From assembly GCF_000294655.1 (NCBI RefSeq), contig NZ_CAHP01000001.1, positions 209,363-273,362 on the forward strand: DNA of 64,000 nt. Reading direction: 5' to 3'. Below the pieces are notes generated by a model that searched no databases, had not been told where the DNA came from, and saw only the letters and a program-made list of their open reading frames with translations. Below are positions 8,559 through 15,149 of this stretch, in pieces. The DNA comes from Magnetospirillum molischianum DSM 120 (GTDB lineage Bacteria > Pseudomonadota > Alphaproteobacteria > Rhodospirillales > Magnetospirillaceae). The first letter of the stretch is position 1. The number at the start of each line of letters is the position of its first letter. Position numbers and translations under genes: made by a program.

Positions 8559-8635
8559 GTCCCGGTAGCTCAGCAGGATAGAGCAACGGTTTCCTAAACC
8601 GTAGGTCAGGGGTTCGAATCCCTTCCGGGACGCCA
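8559..8635 (+). tRNA. tRNA-Arg (anticodon CCT)
   Basis: A complete cloverleaf: acceptor GTCCCGG/CCGGGAC, D-arm with AGCTCAGCAGGATAGAGC, anticodon stem ACGGT/ACCGT around the loop TTCCTAA (anticodon CCT), TpsiC arm with GGTTCGAATCC, discriminator G and encoded CCA. Its 3' part from 8590 is repeated at 15104-15149, showing that an integrative element inserted here and restored the gene. Confidence 0.97.
8590..8635 (+). repeat. attL: 46-bp core within tRNA-Arg
   Basis: Runs from the anticodon loop (TTTCCTAAACC) to the encoded CCA and is identical to 15104-15149. Sequences outside the core differ, so this is the extent of the identity segment. Confidence 0.92.
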
Positions 8636-8669
8636 AATTCTCCTTATATTTCAGTCAGTTAGCGTCAAG

Positions 8670-8693
8670 GTGAATTGCGAAATAGCAATTCAC
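8670..8693. promoter_or_regulatory. Inverted repeat upstream of integrase
   Basis: GTGAATTGC and GCAATTCAC form a perfect 9-bp dyad around GAAATA. The related relic past attR has the same dyad with a changed outer pair (ATGAATTGC/GCAATTCAT), so pairing is conserved while sequence varies. Likely an operator or architectural site controlling the integrase or the att complex. Confidence 0.6.
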
Positions 8694-8753
8694 ACTCATT
8701 TAACATATGCTATGCGGGAAATTTGCACAATTTTATACGCGCTTTAGTAGTGG

Positions 8754-8764
8754 ATTGTGAAATG
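8754..8764 (-). repeat. Candidate integrase arm-type site, left end
   Basis: ATTGTGAAATG is the exact reverse complement of the 11-mer CATTTCACAAT that occurs twice in tandem near the right end (15028-15049). It overlaps the integrase start codon, so integrase binding could also repress its own gene. Confidence 0.45.
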
Positions 8765-10105
8765 GCCCGTGCGAAAAAGACCGACTATGTCTACGCCGAT
8801 GACAAGACCATCGCGCTCTATCAGCGCCCCGGCAGCAGCTTCTGGCAGGCGCGCATTCAGCATGTGAACGGCAAGTGCCAAGCTATCAGCACCCGGCAGA
8901 CCGATTTGGACAAGGCGCTGGCCTGGGCGCGAGAGCATAAGATAATGGTCAAGGTGCTGACCGCGCGCGGTCAGGATCCCACGGCAGCAACGTTCAAGCG
9001 CGTGGCCGAGCGGTGGCTGAGTTCAATCGCCGAAGGCGATAATCCGCGAACAATCCACGACTACACGACCATCGTTCAGCGCTACCACATCCCCTATTTG
9101 GGCAAGTTCAAGATCACGGAGATTACCCAGCAGGTCTTGCGGGACTATGAGCAATGGCGCAAATCCTACTGGACAACGGGGCCGGGGTCTCAAGAAGCTC
9201 GCGAAACCATCGAGCGCAAGGACGGCAAGATCTATGTCCGGGCCAAGAAGATGGGGAGCCGGTCAAAAGCCTACAGCGAAGACACCGTTCTGCGGCAGAT
9301 TTTCGCCTATGCGGTCGAACACGATCATCTGCCAGCTTCCCGCAGGCCGGTGATCGGAACCCCTCGCTCGAAATCCCGCAAGGTTGTCCTGGAAAACCGT
9401 TATCCCGCCTTTACCCAAGATCAGGTCGAAAAAATCCTGGCCTACTGTGCCGAAAGCACGCGCGCCAAGGTCAGGGAGGCAGAGACGGGGCTGTCATCCC
9501 AGCTTGATCTGGTCGATCAGGACCGCTTGGTCTTCAACGTCTTCGTTTATCTGATCCTCGGGACAGGCATGCGCCCTGGACGCGAACATTCCAAGCTGAA
9601 GTGGAAGCATTTACGCCATGAAACGGTCGATGGCGTGGACCACCTGATCGTGACCGTTCCACCCGGAACGAAAACAGGAAAGCGGGATGTGCGGTGCGAT
9701 AATTTCGCCATGACAAAGCTTGTGGCGTTCCGAATGCACAGCACATTTCGGGGCGATGACGATTACATCCTGGCCGATCAGGAAACCGGGCAGGCGGTCA
9801 AATCGTTCAAGCGGCAGTTTTCAACCATGTGCCGGGTTCTCGGCTTTAAAGCCGACCAAGTCGGCAAGCCATTCGTTCCCTACAGCCTGCGCCACACCTA
9901 CGCCACGCTGAAGCTCAATGCCGGGGTGGATATTCGGCTGATCGCCAACAACATGGGCAACTCGCCGGAAGTCGTTCATGCCCATTATGGCCACGATACC
10001 GCAGTCAGCCGTGCCAACGAGTTGTCCACCAAGCTCGATTGGATGGGCGTGGAAAATCCGCTGGAAAAACCTCGGAAACGCCCTCGACAGAAGGGTGAAG
10101 ACTGA
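8762..10105 (+). CDS. int: Tyrosine integrase of the tRNA-Arg element
   Basis: A 447-residue phage-type tyrosine recombinase. An N-terminal arm-binding region (about 1-70) and core-binding domain (about 75-190) precede the catalytic domain, with box I Arg in GTGMRPGREHSKLKW (R271), PYSLRHTYAT (R377; the usual first His of HxxR is Tyr here) and the nucleophile Tyr409 in HAHYGH. It should catalyse insertion and excision at the 46-bp tRNA-Arg core. Position immediately 3' of the target tRNA fits. The frame is open from 8675 but the conserved start MARAKKTDYVYADDK is at 8762; the relic integrase past attR begins at the same point. Codon use is like the host. Confidence 0.92.
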   Translation: MARAKKTDYVYADDKTIALYQRPGSSFWQARIQHVNGKCQAISTRQTDLDKALAWAREHKIMVKVLTARGQDPTAATFKRVAERWLSSIAEGDNPRTIHDYTTIVQRYHIPYLGKFKITEITQQVLRDYEQWRKSYWTTGPGSQEARETIERKDGKIYVRAKKMGSRSKAYSEDTVLRQIFAYAVEHDHLPASRRPVIGTPRSKSRKVVLENRYPAFTQDQVEKILAYCAESTRAKVREAETGLSSQLDLVDQDRLVFNVFVYLILGTGMRPGREHSKLKWKHLRHETVDGVDHLIVTVPPGTKTGKRDVRCDNFAMTKLVAFRMHSTFRGDDDYILADQETGQAVKSFKRQFSTMCRVLGFKADQVGKPFVPYSLRHTYATLKLNAGVDIRLIANNMGNSPEVVHAHYGHDTAVSRANELSTKLDWMGVENPLEKPRKRPRQKGED

Positions 10106-10306
10106 TCTGCCTGTCGCCAATCGCGTTGTGGCGCATTCTGGCTGCGAGTTCGGCCCTGTCATGCGCCTATGTAGCGCGGCTGCCATCACGTGTATCCGGG
10201 GCGTTCTGGGGTGATGGGTTTGTCGGGTTTCCCGACAGGGCCAGCCGTGTGACACGATTGGCCAGTCACAGAAACAGCCCCGCAAGATCGCCGGGGCTGC
10301 TTCAGA

Positions 10307-10747
10307 TCAGGGCTTGAGCTTCTTGCCGTAGCGGCCTTTGGCCGCTGCAAGCTGTTTGTCCAGTTCGCCCGCCAGCACCGCGTCACGGATCAGCGTCAAG
10401 GTGGGAACGAGATTGTCGGTCGCGCCGACCTGAACGGTGGACAATTTGGGCTTCAATTCCAGCCGCTTGTTGCCGTAGCGGATTTCCACCAAATACCCGC
10501 CCTTCTCGTCGCGCCAATACCAGGGGCGGAAACGCACCGGCATGTCCTTGAGGACTTTCGTGCCGGTTTCCGCATCCTCGACCCAGCTTTGCCGCCGCCG
10601 CTGGAACAATTCACCCTTCAGCATCGCTTCGGCCGCTTCGATCTGCCGGTTCAGCGCATCGACCATCTTGGCCCGCATGGCCGCTCCCGGCGTATTGGCT
10701 TGATACCGTGTCGCTTCAACGAGCTTCAGCTTCTCCAGGTTTCCCAT
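10307..10747 (-). CDS. DUF6641-like protein of the element
   Basis: A 146-residue protein beginning MGNLEKLKLVEATRY with a helical N-terminal half and a beta-rich C-terminal half that ends in a GELDKQLAAAKGRYGKKLKP tail. The pattern KLKLVEAT, then YLVEIRYGNKRLELK, then AVLAGELD is what I recall for the DUF6641 family of plasmid and phage-associated proteins; function unknown. The start at 10747 is set by GGAG six bases upstream; an in-frame start seven codons earlier lacks such a site. It reads against the integrase, so the two are convergent. Confidence 0.7.
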   Translation of the reverse strand: MGNLEKLKLVEATRYQANTPGAAMRAKMVDALNRQIEAAEAMLKGELFQRRRQSWVEDAETGTKVLKDMPVRFRPWYWRDEKGGYLVEIRYGNKRLELKPKLSTVQVGATDNLVPTLTLIRDAVLAGELDKQLAAAKGRYGKKLKP

Positions 10748-10825
10748 TTCCGTCTCCATGACAACCATATAGAGAATTGTAGTGCCGCTGGAGATCGATC
10801 GCTACCTGTGGATGAACTGTCGCCG

Positions 10826-14383: not shown

Positions 14384-14563
14384 TCAGTTTTCGTCGGTCT
14401 GGAAATTTTTCTGAAAAATTTCTGCCTCCATGAGCGCCCGTCCCGGCTGCGCCCTGTTGGCCGTCGGTTTTCCCGACAGGATGATGCGGGTGAGGTAATC
14501 GGCCAAGCCGCCCCATTCAATCCGCTGCCCCTGGAAGCCGATCTCTACGGTTTTCGTCGTCAT
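14384..14563 (-). CDS. Small protein of the element's right end
   Basis: A 59-residue protein starting MTTKTVEIGFQGQRIEWGGL, with AGGAG seven bases upstream of the ATG, so translation is likely. The C-terminus is Glu/Gln-rich. It is divergent from the DUF6626-like gene with an operator-like palindrome between them. No family recognised. A TGTCGG-type dyad (14463-14479) lies within the coding region. Confidence 0.55.
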   Translation of the reverse strand: MTTKTVEIGFQGQRIEWGGLADYLTRIILSGKPTANRAQPGRALMEAEIFQKNFQTDEN

Positions 14564-14602
14564 CGCAATTCTCCTTTCTGATCCGCGCTGTTCCGCAAGT
14601 GT

Positions 14603-14624
14603 ATTTATGCCGAATGGCATAAAT
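14603..14624. promoter_or_regulatory. Palindromic operator between divergent small genes
   Basis: ATTTATGCC-gaat-GGCATAAAT, a perfect 9-bp dyad in the 92-bp gap between the 59-residue gene (leftward) and the DUF6626-like gene (rightward). Its position is that of a shared operator, perhaps for one of the two products. Confidence 0.55.
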
Positions 14625-14655
14625 AGCTGCACAGGACACCAAGAAGGAGAACGAG

Positions 14656-14937
14656 ATGGACATATACGAAGCTTACGGGGAATTGAAGGCCAACAGCTTG
14701 ACGCGCGACCAATACGATTTCAGCCGGACATGGCTTGGCCGTGACCGCAGCTATCTTTCTAGCCTGAAGGCGCGCAAGCGCCCGGCCAGCCCGGAGACGA
14801 TGATCCATTTGGCAACGGCATTGACCCGCGCCATGGTCGCGGCACGGGCCGAACGACAGATGGCGCAAGCGGAGGTGCTGGACAGGATCGGTGGAAGGGT
14901 TTGGGCGGGAATTTTCATGGCGGAAGAGGGCGTATAG
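14656..14937 (+). CDS. DUF6626-like small protein
   Basis: A 93-residue protein. The N-terminal half, YEAYGELKANSLTRDQYDFSRTWLGRDRSYLSSLKARKRPAS, read in pieces, shows a helix-turn-helix-like pattern I associate with DUF6626, a family of short mobile-element proteins. Ribosome site AAGGAG lies about eight bases upstream. The arrangement of DNA-binding-like protein, divergent gene and palindrome suggests a small regulatory module at the element's right end. Family name from memory; function inferred. Confidence 0.65.
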   Translation: MDIYEAYGELKANSLTRDQYDFSRTWLGRDRSYLSSLKARKRPASPETMIHLATALTRAMVAARAERQMAQAEVLDRIGGRVWAGIFMAEEGV

Positions 14938-15027
14938 CCCGCCGCCATTTTGTCCGTTGCGCGGGGGTGGCTGGCCCGCATAATCACGCGCTGGGCAAGC
15001 CTGGAAACCTCATCTTTTCCGCGCCTC

Positions 15028-15049
15028 CATTTCACAATCATTTCACAAT
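15028..15049 (+). repeat. Candidate integrase arm-type sites, right end
   Basis: Two exact tandem copies of CATTTCACAAT (15028-15038 and 15039-15049), 55 bp inside attR. The same 11-mer is found inverted at the left end over the integrase start. Repeats flanking the core in this way are typical of arm sites for phage-type integrases. Confidence 0.5.
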
Positions 15050-15103
15050 AGGCCAATAAGCTTATAATGCGCTGATATTAAATACGAAAAAATAGCGCTA
15101 CAC

Positions 15104-15149
15104 TTTCCTAAACCGTAGGTCAGGGGTTCGAATCCCTTCCGGGACGCCA
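15104..15149 (+). repeat. attR: duplicated 3' end of tRNA-Arg
   Basis: Forty-six bases identical to 8590-8635, including the TpsiC arm and CCA. The 5' half of a tRNA is missing here, so it is not a functional gene. It marks the right end of the first element and the left end of the relic that follows. Confidence 0.93.

Follow-up and report, generated by a model that had tools for sequence, protein, structure and literature searches.

Introduction

Genomic islands that target tRNA genes carry a tyrosine integrase beside the tRNA and a duplicated tRNA 3' end, and such elements can be stacked in tandem. We here analyzed a window of 64,000 nucleotides (nt) of Magnetospirillum molischianum DSM 120 (positions 209,363 to 273,362 of contig NZ_CAHP01000001.1, from a genome of 3.8 Mb in 61 contigs; coordinates below are those of the window), which contains an element of this kind in tRNA-Arg(CCT). 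Like stacked tRNA islands, the element has an integrase by the tRNA, a duplicated 3' end and a neighboring element; unlike them, it has a backbone with DUF6641 and DUF6626 genes, a palindrome and a candidate structured RNA, and no conjugation gene was recognized in it. The duplicated tRNA end, on which the first-pass annotation of this DNA had centered, is correct and by itself ordinary, and the point of interest is the RNA: the stretch at 13897-14392 appears to represent a candidate RNA class with a narrow known distribution, as predicted by comparison of homologs.

According to one account (PMC12286853), GOLLD and ROOL are large, ornate phage and prophage RNAs, with ROOL env-120 having 659 nt and many GOLLD RNAs exceeding 800 nt; in that account, structured RNAs as large as these are few in bacteria, and the functions of GOLLD and ROOL are left open. 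As far as that account goes, our candidate is similar in being a large structured noncoding RNA on a mobile element near a tRNA, with its role open, and is different in its length of about 500 nt, in having no relevant match in Rfam 15 and in its carrier, a small element that is neither a recognizable phage nor a tRNA array. Phage-inducible chromosomal island-like element (PLE) satellites are described as making abundant noncoding RNAs (PMC7567579), and, on that description, they share with the present locus the combination of a small integrated element and a noncoding RNA (a candidate one here), whereas no helper phage is known for the window element and no satellite marker gene was found in it. 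The anatomy of the locus suits genetic work, with a palindrome found family-wide, a short open reading frame (ORF) before every RNA copy found and proteins of sister elements in the same position.

Results and Discussion

Identification and distribution of the candidate RNA

The candidate RNA and its control region are made up of the following features.

13897-14392, minus strand: candidate structured noncoding RNA of about 496 nt, with approximate ends set by the alignment
14384-14563, minus strand: short ORF immediately ahead of the RNA, with 59 codons from MTTK (14384-14632 in the longer version of the ORF list)
14602-14625, strand not applicable: palindrome TATTTATGCC-N4-GGCATAAATA, presumed operator
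14656-14937, plus strand: DUF6626 protein, presumed regulator (Pfam, E 4.9e-12)

The segment 13905-14390 of the window was 81-82% identical in nucleotides to two related loci (L098 and L100) over about 490 nt. A protein-coding reading of 13897-14392 was rejected, as stops occur in all six frames of 10 copies and no long ORF is common to the homologs; the translated matches between clades extended over 13-34 amino acids (aa) only, in varying frames. A covariance model (R1) was built on a 199-nt core of the RNA, and its search returned 10 copies, which are spread over 8 of the 55 genomes of the taxonomic family and belong to 2 of 17 genera. Three of these copies were new and distant (E 1.4e-14, 4.8e-15 and 4.3e-12), with 55-57% identity to the window, and their context is independent of the model: all three lie near a small recombinase gene and two beside a DUF6626 gene, the third starting 680 nt into its contig. 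Among the named records, the RNA pattern was found in Magnetospirillum sulfuroxidans J10, Magnetospirillum sp. 64-120, M. aberrantis SpK and an uncultured Rhodospirillaceae bacterium. One copy lies in the genome designated G008, which is probably that of M. magneticum AMB-1, a laboratory strain.

Outside the taxonomic family, the matches were not accepted as copies. Five matches in 317 genomes of the order (E 0.001-0.0075) were near the chance level, and two weak ones were found in 385 genomes of the class, of which that in G363 (E 2.0e-5) is harder to dismiss; neither DUF6626 nor the recombinase was found beside any of the seven. G363 also encodes DUF6626, on a different contig, and neither another member of the element family nor the palindrome was found in the 17 kb around its RNA match or the 12 kb around its DUF6626 gene. 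A separate match in L114 (E 0.0028) was set aside, with DUF6626 and the recombinase both absent beside it. In Rfam 15, no relevant match was obtained for the window (E up to 1) or for seven RNA loci (E up to 5), and none of the covariance models, including those of GOLLD, ROOL and OLE, matched above threshold; the sub-threshold matches include mir-9242 (E 0.18), in the 3' portion of two distant copies. Two core patterns of the RNA had no match in viral contigs. A nuclease-guide pair with the HNH gene of the element, of the kind formed by IscB/IsrB with omega-RNA or HEARO, was also considered and rejected, with no Rfam match and with a sibling copy in the same genome (L083) that has no HNH gene.

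Conservation of RNA structure

An alignment of seven sequences gave 95 consensus pairs, 28 of them with changes on both sides. Against shuffles of the alignment columns in which gaps and conservation were preserved, the z score was -10.9 for this set on the minus strand and -14.5 for a set of nine sequences, which had 45 pairs with two-sided changes, compared with 22.5 on average and at most 34 in the shuffles. In an alignment of all 10 copies, itself fitted to model R1, 96.6% of the core cells were paired as against 31-42% when the structure was slid, two-sided changes occurred in 19 of 51 core pairs (at most 4 when slid), and the covariation score was 0.322 (at most 0.092 in the controls). 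When the structure of one genus was applied to the other as a held-out set, it was kept in 74-75% of the cells, compared with 30-41% for slid structures. A further alignment (A6) was excluded because the distant copies were misaligned at an insert. With respect to the strand, the helices shared by both strand predictions contained 31 G-U and 13 A-C combinations in the minus sense, the consensus energy was -253 for minus and -234 for plus, and the single-sequence RNA folding of the window gave z scores of -3.7 for minus and -1.7 for plus.

Several results weigh against a conserved minus-strand RNA or limit its support. In the 7-sequence set, the 33 pairs with two-sided changes were above the mean of the shuffles (22.4) but did not exceed their maximum (38), and in the 10-copy alignment the further pair types (37) were not above the shuffles (38.5). 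In the held-out test, the cells that had changed relative to every training row were paired in 41% (34-42% slid) and 52% (33-45% slid) of cases in the two directions. The plus strand also stood out in the column shuffles (z of -10.3), and so did the folding of the window stretch as DNA (z of -3.8); the single-sequence energy of the distant copy L141 slightly favored the opposite strand (-224.9 vs -219.6), with folding z scores of -5.7 for the predicted strand and -5.0 for the opposite one. The reading as an RNA is slightly weakened, since neither the folding of L141 nor that of DNA favors the RNA strand. In addition, antisense stretches of some copies are stop-free for up to 131 aa, no minus-strand promoter-like or terminator-like site was found in 13700-14800, and the copies come from two genera only, effectively from three clades; DUF6626 was seen beside 9 of the 10 and the recombinase close to 8 of them, and the others reach contig ends. 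Taken together, the alignments argue strongly that structure-level conservation in the divergent homologs exceeds that in the controls, with the weaker sub-tests alongside, and the assignment of the candidate to the minus strand is suggested with moderate confidence.

Control region and the position of the RNA in related elements

The short ORF was present ahead of the RNA in all 10 copies, the likeness of its products between the genera being judged by eye. Where a DUF6626 gene is present, it is divergent from the short ORF, with the palindrome between them. The palindrome, of the form TATTTA-N-TAAATA, lies near 23 of 25 listed DUF6626 genes, and these 23 account for every match in 412 kb; it had no match in 244 kb of other fetched DNA. 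The loci L101, L140 and L143 are outside the list of 25 genes, and the palindrome was not seen in L140 and L143. DUF6626 genes were found in 11 of 385 genomes of the class, that of DSM 120 included, and the palindrome was absent at the 10 foreign DUF6626 loci examined. A single-sequence structure model of DUF6626 was all-helical at low confidence, with a predicted local distance difference test score (pLDDT) of 60, and we presume that the protein is a DNA-binding regulator.

In other elements, the position of the RNA is held by a 388-aa protein, which was found 12 times, in a total of 8 of 55 genomes and in the genus designated g1 only, and was not seen in any RNA-bearing element. Sequence comparison of this protein and of a 271-aa protein of the family with the PDB gave weak matches only (E of at least 0.42). 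Small elements that lie in tandem and measure about 5 kb (L167-L170) have a Rep-like gene family at the same position; one member weakly matched Rep_1 (E 0.0019, below the cut-off), another had no match, and an HUH-like motif was recognized by eye. Because the position behind the palindrome and the short ORF holds the 388-aa or a Rep-like protein in sister elements, the RNA can be read as occupying the slot of a protein. It is a more speculative idea, and in our view an unlikely one, that a large ornate RNA of a new class is the lead effector of satellite-like elements and does the job of a protein, such as replication of the excised element or exploitation of a helper.

The tandem elements, L167 (G008:C1:2288000-2306000) and L168-L170, carry an integrase, a response-regulator-like gene, DUF6641, DUF6626 and the Rep-like gene. 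The palindrome was seen at 6 of their 7 listed DUF6626 genes.

Integration of the element in tRNA-Arg(CCT)

The target, the attachment (att) copies, the integrase and the adjoining remnant are as follows.

8559-8635, plus strand: tRNA-Arg(CCT), integration target (ARAGORN; 8559-8632 by Rfam)
8590-8635, plus strand: left att copy, the final 46 nt of tRNA-Arg(CCT), by exact-match comparison
8675-10105, plus strand: tyrosine integrase ORF, with the conserved part from about 8756 (Pfam Phage_integrase, E 2.7e-9; phrog_1, E 5.9e-35)
15104-15149, plus strand: right att copy, the same 46 nt, by exact-match comparison
15150-15339, plus strand: remnant with the left end and first codons of a second integrase, by self-comparison and blastn

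The first-pass annotation had described an exact repeat of the 46-nt tRNA end 6,514 bp downstream, both att copies being kept, with an integrase directly 3' of the tRNA, and all of this holds. No third match to the 46-mer was present in the window even with up to three mismatches, and the repeat did not occur in any of 100 dinucleotide-preserving shuffles. The layout of a tRNA-targeted integrative element, an integrase by the tRNA and the tRNA 3' end duplicated at the far end, was found here, and the same layout was found in G003 and G008. G003 has two exact core copies 11.6 kb apart, with the integrase and the tRNA at the left one, and G008 has an exact right core copy and a near-match tRNA copy with about 10.4 kb between them. 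These bracketed related elements support the role of the 46-nt copies as att sites.

The annotation had further regarded the element as a complete and minimal unit. The att-bounded, tRNA-targeted element stands; its description as complete and minimal is not quite apt, since it abuts the remnant of a second related element and looks reduced beside L083. The similarity of the two ends extends beyond the 46 bp (8578-8692 vs 15092-15206, 85% over 115 nt), followed by a second block (8733-8837 vs 15235-15339, 83% over 105 nt), and blastn aligned 8638-8837 with 15152-15339 at 74% over 202 columns. The start of the second integrase is degraded and breaks off after about 190 bp. Because this truncated start follows the right att copy, the sequence to the right is not simply chromosomal, and the 6.5-kb element abuts the stump of a related one.

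A homolog of the integrase (E up to 1e-20) was found in 16 of 60 genomes searched, that of DSM 120 included. Integrases with 58-61% identity adjoin tRNA-Arg(CCT) in G001, G003, G008 and G014, the copy of G014 having three stops, and others with 42-55% identity adjoin tRNA-Thr(CGT). G006 has three integrase copies of the same orientation in a stretch of 36 kb, and one of them contains a stop. A 43-nt core pattern was exact in 14 of 17 genomes of the genus and was present in two or three copies in 7. A scan of the named genomes for the integrase gave no match. By these comparisons, the element family is present in the genus of the window and, in part, in Magnetospirillum.

Genes of the element family and the sibling copy L083

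The remaining genes of the element are listed below.

10307-10768, minus strand: DUF6641-like protein (Pfam, E 1.3e-5, 25.7 bits against a cut-off of 27; phrog_31551, E 9.5e-84)
11072-11638, minus strand: small tyrosine recombinase of 188 aa, catalytic domain only, by profile match
11768-12115, minus strand: 115-aa backbone protein of no assignment, by comparison of relatives
12539-13429, minus strand: cargo, an HNH nuclease-like protein whose N-terminal part resembles the HNH of effectors of the cyclic-oligonucleotide-based anti-phage signaling system (CBASS)

As judged from shared gene content and order, the family backbone comprises the integrase, DUF6641, the small tyrosine recombinase and the palindrome with DUF6626. 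Counted in 20 fetched regions (L083-L102), some of which are pieces of one contig, relatives of the DUF6641-like protein were present in 18 and those of the small recombinase, the 115-aa protein and DUF6626 in 15 each. The small recombinase alone was found in 43 copies in 22 of 55 genomes of the taxonomic family (E up to 1e-40). Many relatives also encode the 271-aa protein, which has no assignment, and an AAA protein resembling phage clamp loaders. Residues 9-118 of the HNH protein matched the HNH parts of CBASS effectors (best E 2.8e-20), and this cargo gene is probably defensive; the structure model of the protein was unusable (pLDDT 34.7). The earlier description of the cargo as mostly unassigned misses this gene with its CBASS-effector-like HNH domain as well as the conserved, structured and apparently noncoding stretch of about 0.5 kb.

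We agree with the first-pass annotation that the main ORFs encode no recognizable transfer, capsid or replication protein. Searches of the main ORFs with Pfam, PHROGs and NCBIfam found no relaxase or conjugation gene, the origin of transfer (oriT) being outside the search, and the same databases gave no satellite replication or packaging-interference gene in the window element, whereas a clamp-loader-like AAA protein or a Rep-like gene is present in its relatives. No relatives of DUF6641 or DUF6626 were found in phage records and none of the small recombinase in viral contigs. A plasmid search gave 70 records, and the 20 matches listed consisted of one integrase piece and short tRNA-spanning matches. 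In the literature, no mention of DUF6626 or DUF6641 was found, and nothing on this element was seen among the papers listed for Magnetospirillum with structured or noncoding RNA, integrative elements or satellites.

The sibling copy L083, on contig C44 of the same genome, matches the window blocks 10222-10778, 11070-12029 and 13559-14942 at 90-92%. It contains 2.2 kb with members of the 271-aa family and of the clamp-loader-like AAA family (the latter identity being taken from a relative) in place of 291 bp in the window, and a gene weakly matching DUF5677 (E 0.0011) at the position of the HNH gene; beside L083, the window element looks reduced. According to the first-pass annotation, relatives that share this gene order but lack the duplicated tRNA end would speak against its reading. 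L083 shows this in part, having no tRNA, core copy or integrase homolog, on a 13.4-kb contig that is perhaps cut off. Beyond DUF6626 (L083 7803-12391), C44 encodes a TIR-DUF1883 protein, a portal protein, a head protease and capsid proteins. The capsid genes were not accepted as part of the family, being present in L083 only among the fetched loci; this region could possibly belong to a prophage or a capsid-forming satellite.

Three palindromes of the form ACATAC...GTATGT (10827, 10934 and 11031) lie inside the 291 bp of the window that replace the 2.2 kb of L083. Short palindrome-like repeats were also noted: GTCGGKTTTCCCGACA at 10222, 13576 and 14463, which is found at matching places in L083 and recurs in many related loci, and TTCGTGTAACACGAT at 11346 and 13617, also at matching places in L083.

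Proposed mechanism and alternative explanations

We consider that 8590-15149 is probably a site-specific integrative element, reduced and satellite-like, with a trans-acting structured RNA. Recombination by its integrase between the 3' end of tRNA-Arg(CCT) and an att site on the element would keep the tRNA intact and place a 46-bp copy at the opposite end, and the integrase could thereby move the element into and out of the tRNA; a second related element would have been inserted at the same site and survived as the stump. DUF6626 may hold the divergent control region at the operator, and its release would allow a leftward transcript comprising the short peptide and the multi-helix RNA of about 0.5 kb. 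The RNA would then act in trans, as a structured RNA or an RNA-protein particle, and transfer of the element between cells would depend on a helper.

Two alternatives concern the conserved stretch itself. It could be structured DNA, such as an origin from which the excised element is replicated or packaged, and this would fit the Rep-like gene at the same position in the small tandem relatives and the prominence of the plus strand and of DNA folding. We hold it to be very unlikely, however, in view of the excess of G-U over A-C in the shared helices (31 vs 13), the many helices over about 0.5 kb and the short ORF that shares the strand of the RNA in all 10 copies. That the RNA is instead a cis-acting leader or a 3' regulatory region, for the short ORF or for downstream genes, has in our estimate an equally slim chance: the RNA follows the short ORF and is itself followed, in the window, by the HNH gene in the same orientation, but the next gene varies (HNH in the window, DUF5677-like in L083 and backbone genes in L100), and the small recombinase is on the RNA strand in the g1 copies and on the opposite strand in L141 and L142.

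The other alternative is that the whole segment is a decaying remnant of a prophage or an island, immobile now, with the att copies left over. The reduction of the neighboring element to a stump, the absence from the window element of genes of L083 and other relatives, and the portal, protease and capsid genes adjoining L083 all point in this direction. The integrase ORF is intact, however, the att copies are exact and the backbone genes are conserved at 90-92% with L083, so that we regard decay as quite unlikely and favor the integrative element with a trans-acting RNA.

Flanks of the target site

None of the tRNA-Arg right flanks at 10 compared loci of relatives continues as the right flank of the window does; L112, L113 and L116, which are among these 10, have a right flank in common. 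In L103 (G005:C7), about 19 nt to the right of tRNA-Arg are the same as the left end of the window element, after which the sequence diverges, and this match is perhaps the scar of a lost element. Homology with the sister genomes G015:C16 and G005:C9 resumes at 17276, the right border of the stretch 15150-17276, at the 3' end of a tRNA-Lys (17277-17352, minus strand), and the left flank of tRNA-Arg matches a different contig of G015 (C60); the window may join two tRNA loci across foreign DNA. An ORF at 15661-16713 on the plus strand had a weak match to phage lysozyme (E 0.0017), and a segment of about 126 bp close to its start is repeated at 94% in G000:C14.

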